Shown piece after piece: positions 46,266-58,957 of a DNA stretch of 64,000 nucleotides. Both the position numbers and the translations under genes were made by a program. The stretch covers positions 1,603,001-1,667,000 of the forward strand of contig NZ_BLAW01000001.1 in assembly GCF_009617895.1 (NCBI RefSeq), written 5' to 3'. Position 1 is the stretch's first letter, and every line of letters begins with the position of its first letter. The notes under the pieces are model-generated. The model saw nothing but the letters and a program-made list of their open reading frames with translations. It made no database searches and was not told the DNA's origin. This stretch comes from Prolixibacter sp. SD074 (GTDB taxonomy: Bacteria > Bacteroidota > Bacteroidia > Bacteroidales > Prolixibacteraceae).

Positions 46266-49200
46266 TTAGAATTTAACACCCAGTCCAAAACCAACATATC
46301 GTGCCGAAGGATCCTGTAAGTTGTCGTCGTTACCAAAATCCGGATCAATCAACTTCGCTTTTTTCCACATCGCTAAATTTCGTCCAATGAGCTGTACATA
46401 CGCTTCTTTAACAACCGTTCCGGCAAAAAGCGAAGAGCAATCGTACTTAATTGAAGCCTCACGGAGTTTGATGAACGAAGCATCGAAGGTATTCACATCC
46501 ATTTCTTCGGCACGGTAACCGTATGTCATCGCCCAGTCGGAGTACTTCAATCCTTTTCCGTTTTTCGCAAAAACACGGGTATCGGAAATAATATTTCCAT
46601 CGGTATCGTATTGAACATCGCCACTCACTACTGCTACCCCATCCGGAACGTAAAGCTTACCGGCATATTCCGCATCACGGTTAGCCACCGACTCGGGATG
46701 TTTTCCTCCCCACCAGAGTTTAGCAACCGTAAGCGAAGGCATAATTCCTCCCACACGACCATCAACCTGTGCGTTGAACTGCCAGTTTCCTACGGTGAAC
46801 GTATTGTTCCAGCCAAACTGCCAATTCGCATCGAGGTGACCCAATTTCCGTGCAAACGGGTCACGAATGGGCAATCCGCTCGCCTGGTCAATGATGGTTT
46901 GCCCGTCGGGCGATTTTTGCCAGACAGTTGCATAGTAGCTGTCGACCCGTTCATTCATATGCAGGTACCCGTATTTTGTGGCCCCTCCATAGATTTCGCT
47001 CAACACCTTTTTATTGGTCGACCAGTTAACCGCCATATTCCAGCGCATCTTGTCCGTCAGCACCGGAACAACATTTACCATCAATTCCACGCCGGTGGTA
47101 TTATATACATTGCCATTCACCTTACGGGAATCAAATCCGGAAGTGATAGACAGCGGAAGGTCAATGATCTGGTTCTCGTCTTTCACCTTATAGTAGGTAG
47201 CGTCAATACTCAAACGATTCTTGAACAATCCAAGATTTCCGCCCAGTTCCCATGAAGTCGATTTTGCCGGCTGAATTTCACTGTTCGCCAGGCTGGAAGG
47301 ATACGACATACCGGGAGTTGAACCATACATTGATGTATTTGAGTAGGTGTTATAAAGGCTATACACACCCAGGTCAGTAGAAACTTGCGCCCATGTTGAA
47401 CGCAGCTGCGCATGGCTCATCCATGAAGGCAGCTTCACGATATTATCAAACACAAAACTTCCGGAAACCGAAGGATAGAAATAAGAGTTATTATCGACCG
47501 GAAGTGTGGATGACCAGTCATTACGTCCGGAGATAGTCCCGTAGAATGCTTTGAACAGTTCAATATTGACACTTCCGTATGCACTTCGGGTAGCTTTTTT
47601 CTCGATGGTATTGCTTGCCTTAACCGGTCCCAGGCTGTTACCCAGGTTAAAAAGTCCACCGGTAATCAAACCATCGGTCGATGCATATTGATAGTCGTAA
47701 TCATAACGGAACGAAGAAGCTCCGGCAAACGCATCGAGGCTGAACTTATCAGAGAAACTCTTCGTATAAGTTGCCAAAACATCAAAATCGTAATAGTTCC
47801 ATTTGGTTTTCCAGTCCTCGAAATTTCCCAGCACACTGTTTCCGTAGTAGAGGTAACTCTTTGGGGTCTTCCGGTTTTCGTACTGAAAACGGTTTCGCAC
47901 TGCACCCCGTGCCTGGATGGACAAATTTGGCAAAAGCTGGTAGTTCAGCGAAACATTGCTGTTGACAACGTTCCGGTCGTACCTCTGGGTACATTCATAA
48001 GCCATGAAATACGGGTTATTGTACCACAGGTAATTCCAGTTGGCCTGTTTGTAGTTTTCACGGCCTTTCATCCAGTAGTCGCGCATGTCCCGAATATTCA
48101 CGTCATATCCCATCCAGACCGCAATGGTGTACATGTGGTTGAGCGGACCGTATCCGTGACGTGGATAATTATCGGTGTACACCTTGTTATACGAAAGCCT
48201 GGCATCCAACGTCAGTTTGTTCGTAATCTTATATTGCGAACTCATGTTGATACCTGTGCTGTTCAGTTGCGAATTCGGCACCATACCTTTTTGGTACATA
48301 TGACTACCGGACAACCGGATTGAGCCTTTATCATTCGAAGAACTGATGCTGAAATTGGAGTTGGATACAATTCCTGTTTCCAGGAAATTTTTCAGGTTAT
48401 CAGGATGCGAAACCCACGGAGTGGCGACACGCTGATAACGATTGGCGTCATCATATTGAGTCCCCTTAACCGGGCCTTTCCAGGGAATCATCTCGCCTGT
48501 TTGTAAATCTTTAATCGGGCTGTTCCACTGCACAATGTTCGTTCCCTGATCCAGTTTGGGCCCCCAAATCAGGTCATCGTCGTGAATACCGCCACCGGCT
48601 CCATCCACAAATTTATATTGTCCGCCTGAACCGTTTCCATATTCGCTTTGCACTTTAGGAAAGGCTACAAACCCGGCCGAGAACATTTCGCTGTTACTAA
48701 CCGAGATATTCAGTTTTCCTTTGGCAGCATTTTTCGTGGTAACCATGATAGCCCCATCTTTACCGCGCGAACCGTAAAGCGCCGAGGCCGCCGTACCTTT
48801 CAGTACGTTGATGCTGGCAATATCATCACTCGAAATATCATAAAAGTCAGTTGAGATAGGAATACCATCCAATACAATCAGCGGTTTTTTCCCGCGAAGG
48901 AGAAAATCAGGCGCCTGAAACAGTCCCGTTTTGGTATGAACGGTCAATCCGGAAACTTTTCCCGCCAGGGTGTTCATCACGTTCACGTCTTCCACCTGGG
49001 TGAGTTGCTTACCGGTAATCTCCTGCGTGGCATATCCGAGCCGTTTCTTCTCGGTTTTAATTCCCAAAGCAGTCACAACCACTTCATCAATCGCTTCGGT
49101 GTTTTTCTTCAGAACGACATTAATGGTCTTCTGTCCATTGACTGGAACTTCCTGAGGAGTGTAACCGATGAAAGAAAATACCAGCACACCTCCGCCCGGC

Positions 49201-49391
49201 GCATGAATGGTATAGTTCCCGTCAATATCGGTTACCGTTCCGTTGGTGGTACCTTTTATCACCACATTCACTCCCGGAACCGATTCCCCTTCCCGACTTT
49301 TAACAGACCCTTTTATTTCTGTTTGAGCAAAGGCCTGTTGTCCCATGAGGAATCCCAGAAAGGCCAGAAACAGAAAAAGCTTTTTTTTCAT
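46266..49391 (-). CDS. SusC/RagA-type TonB-dependent receptor
   Basis: This 1041-residue TonB-linked receptor has a signal peptide (residues 1-22) and a CarboxypepD-like domain (IKGSVKSREGESVPGVNVVIKG). A plug segment DEVVVTALGI follows, then LGYATQEITGKQL, a TonB-dependent plug and a 22-strand barrel. It ends in the usual aromatic residue (GLGVKF). It takes up a ligand, likely a glycan, peptide or other large molecule, in an energy-dependent way. No glycoside hydrolase or anti-sigma gene is nearby, so the substrate cannot be inferred. Confidence 0.95.
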   Translation of the reverse strand: MKKKLFLFLAFLGFLMGQQAFAQTEIKGSVKSREGESVPGVNVVIKGTTNGTVTDIDGNYTIHAPGGGVLVFSFIGYTPQEVPVNGQKTINVVLKKNTEAIDEVVVTALGIKTEKKRLGYATQEITGKQLTQVEDVNVMNTLAGKVSGLTVHTKTGLFQAPDFLLRGKKPLIVLDGIPISTDFYDISSDDIASINVLKGTAASALYGSRGKDGAIMVTTKNAAKGKLNISVSNSEMFSAGFVAFPKVQSEYGNGSGGQYKFVDGAGGGIHDDDLIWGPKLDQGTNIVQWNSPIKDLQTGEMIPWKGPVKGTQYDDANRYQRVATPWVSHPDNLKNFLETGIVSNSNFSISSSNDKGSIRLSGSHMYQKGMVPNSQLNSTGINMSSQYKITNKLTLDARLSYNKVYTDNYPRHGYGPLNHMYTIAVWMGYDVNIRDMRDYWMKGRENYKQANWNYLWYNNPYFMAYECTQRYDRNVVNSNVSLNYQLLPNLSIQARGAVRNRFQYENRKTPKSYLYYGNSVLGNFEDWKTKWNYYDFDVLATYTKSFSDKFSLDAFAGASSFRYDYDYQYASTDGLITGGLFNLGNSLGPVKASNTIEKKATRSAYGSVNIELFKAFYGTISGRNDWSSTLPVDNNSYFYPSVSGSFVFDNIVKLPSWMSHAQLRSTWAQVSTDLGVYSLYNTYSNTSMYGSTPGMSYPSSLANSEIQPAKSTSWELGGNLGLFKNRLSIDATYYKVKDENQIIDLPLSITSGFDSRKVNGNVYNTTGVELMVNVVPVLTDKMRWNMAVNWSTNKKVLSEIYGGATKYGYLHMNERVDSYYATVWQKSPDGQTIIDQASGLPIRDPFARKLGHLDANWQFGWNNTFTVGNWQFNAQVDGRVGGIMPSLTVAKLWWGGKHPESVANRDAEYAGKLYVPDGVAVVSGDVQYDTDGNIISDTRVFAKNGKGLKYSDWAMTYGYRAEEMDVNTFDASFIKLREASIKYDCSSLFAGTVVKEAYVQLIGRNLAMWKKAKLIDPDFGNDDNLQDPSARYVGFGLGVKF

Positions 49392-54229: not shown

Positions 54230-57200
54230 TCAACTGTTCTCTTTATGGATTCCTTTCAGCAAACACAAATAAGCCTCTTCCAATACCGGTTTCACCGGAA
54301 CAGCACCCGGAGTAGGTTGAGATGCGGAAATAAACCGGACCTTAATCTGGCCGCCATCGCGCATGTGATGCACAACGCGGTCTTTTCCTTCCATGGCATC
54401 GAACTCTTTGGCCGGAATCAGGAACTGCCAAACCAGGCCATCGGCCAGTTTCAGCATGTTGTTGGGATGACCGGTATAACGTAGTTCACCACGGTTGATG
54501 ACGGCTACCTGGTTACAGGAGCTGGAAATGTCTTCAATAACGTGCGTCGAGAAGATAACCACCCGCTCGCGGCTTAGTTCCACCAACAGGTTACGAAAAC
54601 GAATTCGTTCCCGTGGGTCGAGGCCGGCTGTCGGCTCATCAACAACCAAGATACGCGGCAAATGCAGCAGGATTTGTGCAATACCAATGCGTTGCTTCAT
54701 TCCACCTGAGAACGAACCAATTTTGTCGTCTTTCTTGTCCCACAGGTGAACTGCTTCCAACACGTATTGAACACGGGCTTCACGCGCTTCTTTATCGGAC
54801 AATCCTTTCAGAATGGCTTGATAATCGAGAAATTCCCATGCCGACATATTTTCGTATGTACCGAATTCCTGCGGAAGATATCCGATCAATCCCTGCAATT
54901 CTTCACGCTTATGCTGTGTATCCACACCGTTAATCCAGACCTTGCCATAGCTCTGATCGTAAATTCCGCAAATCACGCGCATCATGGTCGATTTACCGGC
55001 ACCATTGGGCCCGAGCAGACCAATCATTCCCGTACCAATATCCAGTGAAACGCCTCGCAACGCTTTGAACGGATCGTGCTTGCGGCCAATAACCGGAATT
55101 TGTTCCACCAGTTTGAAAAACAATCGGCGCAAGCCGGCAAAACGGCCTTTCAACCGTTCGATATTGATCTTGTCGCGGTATAAGTTGTCGGCTGTCACTT
55201 TCACGGCAAGTACGAAATACCACAACACAGCAATCATTACCACCGGGCCGATGGATTCCCACTTCAGGTAAAACAGCGCCAACGCCACTGCCGGCAATCC
55301 CCAGTACAATAACCGATGCATGATAATTCCGATTTTAACCGGGCGGTCTTTTCCGCTTTGCGCGGAAGAATATGCTAGCAACAGCTGTACCCTTCTCCAA
55401 ATCGACAAAGCCATCAGGAACACAAAGTGCGACATAATAAACATCCACAAGCCGTTATCCAGATATGAAAAAGTGAAATAGGCCATGAAACCCATCAGCG
55501 GAATTTCCCAGATAAAATCGTCGAAGTCGCGCCATGAATGATAGGTTTTCAACTCACCTTTGCGTTCGCGAATGTTCCGGTTACCTTTCCATTCACGGAT
55601 AAACCGGTTGCCCCGGTCATAAATCTTCACCAGGTTCTGAATCCTGATTTGAATCGGTACATCTGAATCGATAACCGCTTCGGTAGCTTTTCGCAGGCTG
55701 TTTTTTACGAACCAGGCCGCTCCGGGAACCAATACGGTTAATCCAACCAAATCGACCATCTGCCACATAAAGGCATCCACTTTCGTGAAGATAAGAATAC
55801 AACCACCTATGTAAAGTAAAATCTGAAGGATTTGAATCCGGAGATCGAGCTTGCGTATCCAGTTAATCGCATTTTCGAGGCCAAAATAGAAGGTTGGAAT
55901 AAAGATAAGCGTTAGCAATGTACTTACGCTTAGTCCTCCAATTACTGTAATAGCGAATGGAGCACCAATGGCTCCGACATATTCATTATCGCCCATCGCC
56001 AGTGGCATCATGGCCACGATGGTGGTGATAGCGGTAATCAGGATGGGGCGGATACGCGACATTCCGGCCGTAATCAGGGCGCGTTCTTTCCGGTAACCCC
56101 GCTTCCGCAGAATACCGGTATAGTCGATGAGAATAATTCCGTTATTCACCACCACGCCCAAGAGGATCAAAAATCCCGTCAAGGTATTGGCATTAAACAG
56201 GCTGTTCCCGGTAAAAATAAGCGCCAGGAATGAGCCGATGGCTGCCAGCGGGATGGAGAACATCAGCACAAAGGGCGTAGACAACGACTCGAATACTGAC
56301 GCCAGAATCATCAGAATAAGGATAAAAGCCGCCAGGATCAGGAAATAGAATTCCTGCAGGCCATCTTCTTCGTGTATGACCTGGACGGCAACACCCGAAG
56401 GCAGATTGTAATTGGCTACGATCTGGTCTACTTCCATGCGGTAAGCATCGAGCAAAGTCTTCGAATCCTGCGCTTCATTGATAAAACGATAGCGGACTTC
56501 AACCTGTTTTTCCTGGTTCACCCGGTCAATATTTGCGTATCCGGAAGAGAAAACCACATCGGCTACTGACTGCAATTCGTGCGTACCACCATTCGCATCG
56601 GTGACGAGCAAATGCCGTAAGTCATCAGCTGAACGCTCTTTGTTCTCTTTTGCATCTTCATCACGAATGATAATGTCATACTGGTCGGTTCCTTGTTTGA
56701 ACGGAACGTTGGTATTGATTTCCGGATTGAAAGAGTTCAGTTCTGAAGCGATGTTAGCCAACGGAATATCGTAAGCCGTCAGCAGTAACGGATGAAACTC
56801 CAGGTGAACTTCCGGCCGGTTATCGGAGTAGCTAACCTGCACCCGGCGCATCGATTTCAGACTTTCCAGATAATACTGTAAATCGGAAGCTACATTCTTC
56901 ATGCTTTCGAAATCCTGTCCTTTGATAAGAATGCGTTCCCAGTTGGTCCCTACGCCCAAGAGGCGCATGAAACTGGTACCGCCACCACCAAAGGAGCCAC
57001 CGCCCCCACCACCACGGTTTCCGGCAGAAGCTGGTTCTTCATCGACACTGATTTCAGCGCCGGAAATATTTTCAACACGATTTTCTACATCGCTTTTGAT
57101 TTCGGCAATGCTTCGTTTACTGGTCTTCTTGTAACCGTCCTTCAGGGTAACCGTTACAACCGCGTTATCCTCTTCAATTTTACTGACGATATCCTGCTTT

Positions 57201-58957
57201 TCCTCAACCGGTTCTAACCGGCTTTCGATTTGTGAAACCACCTTATCGGTCGATGCCAGCGTCGAGCCGGAAGGCATGGTCACATAAACCTGAAAATCGT
57301 TGGTTTCGACTTCGCTAAGATTATTAACGCTGACCGCCAACAGAATAAAAATGGTCAGGAAGAAAAAGACCAAGGCACCAATAATGGTCCGGGCCGGGCT
57401 CCGCAGCGTATTTTTCAGCACCATCACATAGCCCTGAATAAGCGGATTCCGGGTCGATATCTGGTTGAAATTGATGGAACTGCTTTTCTTCCTGGTAAGG
57501 AAATAATGCGCCATCATGGGCACCAGCAGCAACGCCACAAACAAACTGATGGTGAGCGTTGAGATAATGGATACACCGACATTCTTCCCGATAAGGCTAA
57601 TCAGGTAATTATCAGAAAAAAGGAAAGGCAAGAAGACAGTAATGGTCGTTAATGTAGCTGCTACGATGGAGCGCCATACTTCCGTTGTTCCCTGAATAAC
57701 TGCCTTCGCCGGGGGAAGGCCCTGTGATCGTAATCGATAAATATTTTCGAGCACTACCACACTGTTGTCGAGCAACATCCCGACGGCCAGCGCCATCCCG
57801 ACAAGGGTCAGGCTGTTGATGGTGACACCGGCAGCATAGAAGAAGTTGAACGCCGCATATACCGATATGGGAATGGCCAGCGCAATAACAGAAACCAGCT
57901 GGAAATTTTTCAGGAAGATCCAGAGCACCAACACGGCCAGAAGTCCACCCACCAGCGCCAGTTCGATGATCTGGTTGATATTGTCCTCCATGGTTTGTGC
58001 GGTGTTGTTCCGGACTACAATCTCGATATCTTTCGAAGCCAGTTTTTCATTCAGCTTCTTAACCACATCGAGCGTTTTGTGCGAAACATCAATCAGGTTA
58101 GCCTGGGCGTCGTTCACCAACCGGACCGTCACCGCATCCTTTCCGTTCACACGGGAATAGGACGTCTCTTCCTTTACACCGAAATAAACATTCGCTACAT
58201 CTTTCAGCAGGATGGGACCGTCGGCGATCACGAGGTTTTCCAGCGATTTGATATCGGTGTATTCGGCATTTACATGCACAATGAATTGCCGGTTCGACTG
58301 GTACACGTTTCCGGCGAAAGCACGGGTTCGGTAACCCTGGGCAATTTTGCTGCGAATAGTTGCCGGCGTAATGCCATAAGCTTCGCACATCGCCTTTTTC
58401 AGGCGCACCTCGATGGATTTCTCCCGGCCACCATAGGCCGTTACACCGGCAACTCCGTCGATGTTTTCCAAATCAGGGACAACCTCCTGGTCTGTTTCGT
58501 TCCGGACTCTGTCGACACCTCCCGAGCCACGCACCTGGAGCTCCATGAACTGGTTGTTCATCTGGTCGAGGTCCACCTTCATCACGGTTACCCGGAATTC
58601 TTCAGGAAGCGACTGCTTTGCCTCGTCAATTTTTTCCTGCAGCTTCAGGTAGGTATACTTGAAATTGACGTTCTTCTTAAATTCGACGACAATGGTACCC
58701 CGCTGCGACTGCGCTGTCGACTGCAGATTTTCGATTCCCTGCATGGTTCCAATGGCTCCTTCTAACGGAATGATGGCCTGGTTCTCCATATATTTGGGGT
58801 CTACCTCCGTTTGGGTATTTACCTGAACGAAAAGCACGGGCAGCTCAGCATTGGGAAACAGCTCCATGGGGAGATTTTGCCAGGAGATGTATCCCAGCAA
58901 ACTCAGCCCGATGAATAACATGCTGATAAGGGTCTTTCTGTTTATAATAAAGTTCAT
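54230..58957 (-). CDS. RND efflux permease fused to an ABC ATPase
   Basis: This is a single uninterrupted reading frame of 1575 residues. Residues 1-~1030 are a complete RND permease: a first helix then NLPMELFPNAELP, Asp397 in GMLLDNSVVVLEN, two periplasmic porter parts and a closing GGLSVSTLLTLIFIPTFYF. Two further helices follow (about 1030-1080), then an ABC-type first strand (IQNLVKIYDRG, ~1107-1116). After a four-helix membrane insertion come Walker A GPNGAGKST (~1316), a Q-loop (Q1363), signature SGGMKQR (1417), Walker B VVDEPTAGLD (D1440, E1441) and H-loop STHVIED (H1472). All catalytic motifs of both parts are intact. A glycine-rich stretch lies at ~645-662. The protein probably works with the adaptor, TolC and the ABC-2 permease of its operon. 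Confidence 0.9.
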   Translation of the reverse strand: MNFIINRKTLISMLFIGLSLLGYISWQNLPMELFPNAELPVLFVQVNTQTEVDPKYMENQAIIPLEGAIGTMQGIENLQSTAQSQRGTIVVEFKKNVNFKYTYLKLQEKIDEAKQSLPEEFRVTVMKVDLDQMNNQFMELQVRGSGGVDRVRNETDQEVVPDLENIDGVAGVTAYGGREKSIEVRLKKAMCEAYGITPATIRSKIAQGYRTRAFAGNVYQSNRQFIVHVNAEYTDIKSLENLVIADGPILLKDVANVYFGVKEETSYSRVNGKDAVTVRLVNDAQANLIDVSHKTLDVVKKLNEKLASKDIEIVVRNNTAQTMEDNINQIIELALVGGLLAVLVLWIFLKNFQLVSVIALAIPISVYAAFNFFYAAGVTINSLTLVGMALAVGMLLDNSVVVLENIYRLRSQGLPPAKAVIQGTTEVWRSIVAATLTTITVFLPFLFSDNYLISLIGKNVGVSIISTLTISLFVALLLVPMMAHYFLTRKKSSSINFNQISTRNPLIQGYVMVLKNTLRSPARTIIGALVFFFLTIFILLAVSVNNLSEVETNDFQVYVTMPSGSTLASTDKVVSQIESRLEPVEEKQDIVSKIEEDNAVVTVTLKDGYKKTSKRSIAEIKSDVENRVENISGAEISVDEEPASAGNRGGGGGGSFGGGGTSFMRLLGVGTNWERILIKGQDFESMKNVASDLQYYLESLKSMRRVQVSYSDNRPEVHLEFHPLLLTAYDIPLANIASELNSFNPEINTNVPFKQGTDQYDIIIRDEDAKENKERSADDLRHLLVTDANGGTHELQSVADVVFSSGYANIDRVNQEKQVEVRYRFINEAQDSKTLLDAYRMEVDQIVANYNLPSGVAVQVIHEEDGLQEFYFLILAAFILILMILASVFESLSTPFVLMFSIPLAAIGSFLALIFTGNSLFNANTLTGFLILLGVVVNNGIILIDYTGILRKRGYRKERALITAGMSRIRPILITAITTIVAMMPLAMGDNEYVGAIGAPFAITVIGGLSVSTLLTLIFIPTFYFGLENAINWIRKLDLRIQILQILLYIGGCILIFTKVDAFMWQMVDLVGLTVLVPGAAWFVKNSLRKATEAVIDSDVPIQIRIQNLVKIYDRGNRFIREWKGNRNIRERKGELKTYHSWRDFDDFIWEIPLMGFMAYFTFSYLDNGLWMFIMSHFVFLMALSIWRRVQLLLAYSSAQSGKDRPVKIGIIMHRLLYWGLPAVALALFYLKWESIGPVVMIAVLWYFVLAVKVTADNLYRDKINIERLKGRFAGLRRLFFKLVEQIPVIGRKHDPFKALRGVSLDIGTGMIGLLGPNGAGKSTMMRVICGIYDQSYGKVWINGVDTQHKREELQGLIGYLPQEFGTYENMSAWEFLDYQAILKGLSDKEAREARVQYVLEAVHLWDKKDDKIGSFSGGMKQRIGIAQILLHLPRILVVDEPTAGLDPRERIRFRNLLVELSRERVVIFSTHVIEDISSSCNQVAVINRGELRYTGHPNNMLKLADGLVWQFLIPAKEFDAMEGKDRVVHHMRDGGQIKVRFISASQPTPGAVPVKPVLEEAYLCLLKGIHKENS

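Follow-up and report, generated by a model that had tools for sequence, protein, structure and literature searches.

A conserved chain joining an RND permease to an ABC ATPase in Bacteroidota, with a putative role in a hybrid exporter

Described exporters and the RND-ABC chain

At the inner membrane, Gram-negative tripartite exporters are powered mainly by either RND or ABC pumps, which are classed apart. In the window analysed here, a stretch of 64,000 nucleotides from Prolixibacter sp. SD074, both occur in a single polypeptide (hereafter, the fusion), which belongs to a seven-gene operon. The locus resembles HAE-1/MdtBC-type RND pumps in its 12-TM AcrB-like permease, adaptor, TolC channel and pair of different RNDs in one operon, and the best match to its RND permease among PDB sequences is MdtB (9lyq). 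Unlike in those pumps, one of the RNDs is extended by six additional helices plus an ABC ATPase, and the operon also encodes a separate ABC ATPase along with two permeases of the ABC-2 type. The fusion also scores far under the curated NCBIfam cut-offs for HAE-1 subfamilies, reaching 461.7 bits for NF033617, 326.1 for NF000282 and 302 for TIGR00915, where the cut-offs are 1250, 1250 and 940 bits, respectively. The MdtB2C trimer offers a precedent for the mixing of two different RND chains (PMC4338810, PMC4462101); this locus has two adjacent RND genes, whose products may form a comparable trimer.

ABC-2 or type V transporters such as NosDFY, DrrAB and the GldA type are comparable in their separate permease, here NosY-like and 246 aa long, and in an ATPase of the DrrA/GldA kind, but the ATPase of the fusion is joined to an RND and appears to hold a membrane domain after its first strand. 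MacAB-TolC likewise combines an ATP-driven inner-membrane part, in which ATPase and permease may be one chain, with an adaptor and TolC. Its permease is MacB/FtsX-like, whereas the fused permease here is an RND and the ABC permease is separate, with a predicted ABC-2 fold. The potentiation of trans-envelope pumps by inner-membrane pumps, a form of sequential export, provides a precedent for the two-step logic proposed below (PMC4338810), with the difference that both pumps are here covalently joined and co-inherited. The iron-regulated B. thetaiotaomicron genes BT1212-14, annotated as TolC/RND/ABC (PMC10434189), are alike by name, but were set aside as no link to the operon was established.

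Neither an RND-ABC chain nor the seven-gene operon was found described in the open-access literature, of which coverage was partial, in agreement with the original remark that no described transporter was known to couple the two systems in one chain. The portions of a long review of tripartite systems reached by our search terms contained no RND-ABC chain either. The family may be hidden under plain RND names by automatic annotation. With the exception of the linker, its domains are all of known kinds; the RND-ABC combination and the split ATPase appear to be new, and there is a real chance that the energy coupling is as well. A conserved chain of this type, with hosts that include Bacteroidota of the gut and mouth, would allow the coupling of cytoplasm-to-periplasm and periplasm-to-outside steps to be probed directly, while the split ATPase would show that a membrane domain can be accommodated between strands 1 and 2 of an ABC fold.

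The fused chain and its relatives

The fusion is encoded by a single ATG-to-stop frame of 1575 aa (54230-58957, minus strand). Pfam places ACR_tran on residues 2-1025 (541.9 bits, cut-off 28) and ABC_tran on residues 1300-1444 (102 bits), bearing out the expectation of a full RND permease and an ABC ATPase in one unbroken frame. Its parts and partner genes are listed in Table 1.

Table 1. Coordinates of the parts of the fusion and of its partner genes; positions are those of the window, except for the two upstream genes beyond it.
Feature	Position	Strand	Basis
RND permease half of fusion, residues 1-1027	55877..58957	(-)	Pfam ACR_tran; invariant Asp397
Linker with two extra hydrophobic helices (TM13-TM14), residues 1028-1101	55655..55876	(-)	Hydropathy; model helices
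ATPase first strand and A-loop, residues 1102-1116, IRIQNLVKIYD, Tyr1113	55610..55654	(-)	HMM gain, model, structural alignment
Membrane insertion within ATPase, four predicted TM helices, residues ~1117-1296	55070..55609	(-)	Hydropathy; AF2
ATPase core, residues 1297-1575	54233..55069	(-)	ABC_tran; invariant motifs
Small ABC-2 (type V) permease, 246 aa	53467..54207	(-)	AF2 fold; directly downstream of fusion
Second, ordinary RND permease, 1031 aa	59028..62123	(-)	ACR_tran, 741 bits
Periplasmic adaptor (MFP), 351 aa	62165..63220	(-)	TIGR01730 RND_mfp, 205 bits, above cut-off
TolC-family outer membrane channel, cut at window end; 495 aa in genome	63245..64000	(-)	OEP, 152.7 bits
M1-like/ABC-2 permease, 1113 aa, upstream beyond window	L010:12744-16085	(-)	Weak Pfam similarity
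Separate ABC ATPase, 298 aa, upstream beyond window	L010:16136-17032	(-)	GldA model match

Among 395 genomes drawn from the phylum and searched for relatives, six, including the genome of origin, carried the chain in one open frame, and the relatives in this sample were 53-57% identical to the fusion across its full length. A profile of the linker run against approximately 85,000 species genomes yielded at least 130 relatives, the best 80 of which were taken further. Unbroken chains of 1500-1700 aa were found in 69 of these 80 and, together with those of the six genomes, form a set of 75 full-length sequences, which are partly non-independent because the MAG L086 and genome G116 carry the same sequence (at least one such pair). 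Contig ends cut eight of the other 11, and the last three (L044, L065 and L067) come from draft bins in which the frame breaks within the RND half, away from the joint. Cultured hosts include Prolixibacter, Draconibacterium, Mariniphaga, Mangrovibacterium, Sunxiuqinia, Marinifilum, Bacteroides faecis, Parabacteroides and Tannerella forsythia, with Saprospiraceae and Melioribacteraceae represented by MAGs. The architecture, whose presence in several genera had been proposed as a check, thus extends from Prolixibacter to Bacteroides, Tannerella and a Melioribacteraceae MAG. The nearest named relatives at the locus are Prolixibacter bellariivorans and P. denitrificans, with linker identities of 92% and 91%.

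A stop codon lost through sequencing or assembly error had been foreseen as a possible source of the fused frame. The genome assembles into one contig (3.96 Mb). Chains of ~1560-1630 aa occur in independent genomes, two other Prolixibacter species included, which rules out an assembly or frame error. The chain is unbroken in all 75 full-length sequences and its linker is conserved, and the chance that two genes were joined artificially by sequencing, assembly or annotation error is, in our estimation, negligible. Relatives bearing the two parts as separate ORFs, regarded beforehand as contrary evidence, were sought with profiles of the linker and of the downstream permease in samples of 296-395 genomes, and no unfused version was found; outside fused loci these profiles gave only short, weak matches (E-values of 4e-5 to 0.008). 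Neither the linker nor the membrane insertion matched Pfam, NCBIfam or PDB sequences, and the assignment of the linker to a known family was accordingly dropped.

The RND half contains, in its second periplasmic part, a glycine-rich stretch, GNRGGGGGGSFGGGG (window positions 56950-57030, minus strand; residues ~643-669), whose length varies among relatives.

ATPase fold and proton site

The fused ATPase contains Walker A (1316-1323), a Q-loop (Q1363), the signature SGGMKQR (1417-1423), Walker B with the catalytic Glu (D1440/E1441) and an H-loop (H1472). The adenine-binding A-loop residue Tyr1113, Walker A residues 1316-1322, Gln1363, SGGMKQR, Asp1440-Glu1441 and His1472 are invariant in 75/75 sequences. 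The catalytic motifs noted originally are thus all present, but the fold is interrupted, a feature that had been overlooked: ~180 residues with four helices separate strand 1 from strand 2. Against the GldA ATPase model, the fused core matches from position 14 and the separate ATPase of the operon from position 1, and the missing start is found ~180 residues upstream of the core as IRIQNLVKIYD. When residues 1103-1116 were joined to the core, the score against a separate-ATPase model, built from just two ATPases, rose by 5.9-11.6 bits in 75/75 sequences, against gains of at most 4.4 bits for 375 control joins with other linker pieces.

An AlphaFold2 model of residues 856-1575 (pLDDT 78, pTM 0.54) places a strand at 1104-1110 (model residues 249-255), followed by four long helices (model residues 287-310, 314-346, 350-378 and 381-406) and the next strand at 1303-1307. 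In a structural alignment with the ABC ATPase 1vpl, model residues 247-713 cover 235 of its 238 residues at 1.6 A; the first strand occupies its normal place and, apart from the insertion, the fold is complete. Sequence and predicted structure agree on an ATPase interrupted by a four-helix membrane insertion; the modelled packing of the ATPase part against the RND is unreliable owing to the pTM of 0.54. Averaged hydropathy peaks at 1045-1059 and 1062-1080 (TM13-TM14), with two extra hydrophobic helices before strand 1 of the ATPase and four after it, and most positive charge falls on loops of the inferred cytoplasmic side. The even numbers of extra helices and the positively charged loops predict a cytoplasmic ATPase, an orientation that had been put forward for verification by structure prediction. 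Within its own genome, the fused ATPase is closest to the separate ATPase of the operon (244 bits, with the next at 150), which suggests that a duplication of the ATPase preceded the fusion.

In the RND half, Asp397, which we take from its motif to be the equivalent of AcrB Asp407, is invariant in 75/75 full-length fusions. The full AcrB relay was not found, with Asp397 alone retained: the position of the second TM4 Asp (D408) is N398 in 73/75 fusions and that of the TM10 Lys (K940) is N938 in 75/75. The ordinary partner RND has the same Asp-Asn (TM4) and Asn (TM10) pattern and, as Asp397 is invariant, we read this pattern as a type of proton site rather than as a loss. Both engines appear to be under selection, given that the ATPase motifs and the proton-site Asp are invariant among the 75 full-length fusions.

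Partner genes and candidate roles

The seven genes lie on one strand in the order separate ABC ATPase, 1113-aa protein, TolC, adaptor, ordinary RND, fusion and 246-aa permease (Table 1); the original reading had covered the fusion but not its partner genes, some of which extend past the window end. The identical set occurs in the genome of origin and in five others (G347, G345, G116, G158 and G064), and the neighbourhoods covered around the named loci nearly always show the genes of this operon. The second RND, MFP and TolC precede the fusion in most to nearly all homologous loci, in conserved order, and the 246-aa permease follows it wherever the contig continues, being missing only at contig ends. 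Two loci (L066 and L089) carry the fusion and the small permease without the usual RND directly upstream. In L089, several unrelated genes separate an RND fragment from the fusion and permease, and these two may therefore be able to travel without the remaining genes. A sigma-70 promoter scan, which is ill-suited to Bacteroidota promoters, did not exceed the number of matches expected by chance. The long frame resembling a TonB-dependent receptor, with a SusC-like start, that lies a few genes further downstream (window positions 46266-49391, minus strand) is ordinary for Bacteroidota.

The 246-aa permease matched nothing above threshold in Pfam. Its AF2 model (pLDDT 91) is structurally closest to NosY (7o12_E; Z 16.1, rmsd 3.7 over 212 residues), and the matches listed are ABC transporter chains, nearly all of the NosY/ABCG/ABCA type, with no MacB/FtsX-type fold among those listed. 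The 1113-aa protein has weak similarity to ABC2_membrane_2 and Peptidase_M1, each just under the curated cut-off, and ends in a Golvesin_C domain. HExxH is absent from all members of its family that were read (including those of 1113, 1012, 1101 and 1091 aa), so the protein is probably not an active peptidase; its M1-like domain is possibly a periplasmic binding domain derived from one.

Two mechanisms had originally been proposed: ATP hydrolysis gating or driving the RND pump, and the tethering of an ABC-2 exporter to an RND/TolC duct. The latter fits better because, contig ends aside, an ABC-2-fold permease follows the fusion, and the second RND, MFP and TolC precede it. We give an even chance to a hybrid RND/ABC exporter that spans the envelope and has the fusion as its inner-membrane hub, operating from the fused ATPase through the ABC-2 permease to RND/TolC. 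The invariant residues of both engines, the conserved partner genes, the predicted cytoplasmic ATPase and the correlated evolutionary distances given below speak in its favour. In such an exporter, the RND half of the fusion would enter a mixed trimer with the separate RND, by analogy with MdtB and MdtC, and the fused ATPase would power the adjacent ABC-2 permease, either alone as a dimer or in partnership with the operon's other ATPase and the M1-like permease. A substrate present in the cytoplasm or inner leaflet would be moved or flipped by the ABC part to the periplasmic side and captured there by the RND, which would still run on protons via Asp397 and eject it through the adaptor and TolC. 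Covalent fusion would set the stoichiometry and put both transport steps side by side. The mismatch in symmetry between an RND trimer and an ABC dimer speaks against such a hub, unless the trimer is mixed, as does the fact that the two ABC permeases could have a separate task.

Were the fused ATPase instead to gate or power the RND cycle directly through the extra helices, the RND would be partly or wholly ATP-driven. The covalent link is consistent with this, as are the six extra helices between the RND and the ATPase core, including the four of the membrane insertion, and the Asn residues at the positions of AcrB D408 and K940; the invariance of Asp397, the identical pattern in the ordinary partner and the dedicated ABC-2 permease nevertheless make it a rather unlikely arrangement. 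Also doubtful is a new class of dually energised transporter, in which a single chain would draw on ATP and the proton gradient alike and hydrolysis would be mechanically coupled to the RND cycle via the membrane domain embedded in the ATPase. Alternatively, the fusion may serve purely as a tether between two independent exporters, whose common operon and chain would ensure that they are co-expressed and co-located but with no transfer of substrate from one to the other. Every part is complete enough to work alone, and the correlation of 0.85-0.94 in evolutionary distances among the fused parts, second RND and permease is likewise expected under plain co-inheritance. However, the joint itself is suggested to matter by the lack of unfused linker or permease relatives in the phylum samples and by a linker that holds a mean pairwise identity of 40% among relatives, and we consider a pure tether unlikely.

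Mechanical work with periplasmic partners has been proposed for NosDFY and MacB, and the ABC part could similarly spend ATP on the assembly, opening or release of the RND/adaptor/TolC complex rather than on substrate transport. The resemblance of the permease fold to NosY would suit such a role, and the large M1-like domain lacking HExxH could be the periplasmic binding part. Fold matches with Z within 1 nonetheless include true ABCG-type exporters, so that the fold leaves exporter and mechanical roles undecided, and we hold the latter to be quite improbable.

Elsewhere in the same genome, two other RND homologues (G000 C1:1531648-1534713 and C1:307874-310870) sit within open frames that, at 1465 and 1487 residues, exceed the size of an ordinary RND, and are perhaps further fusions.
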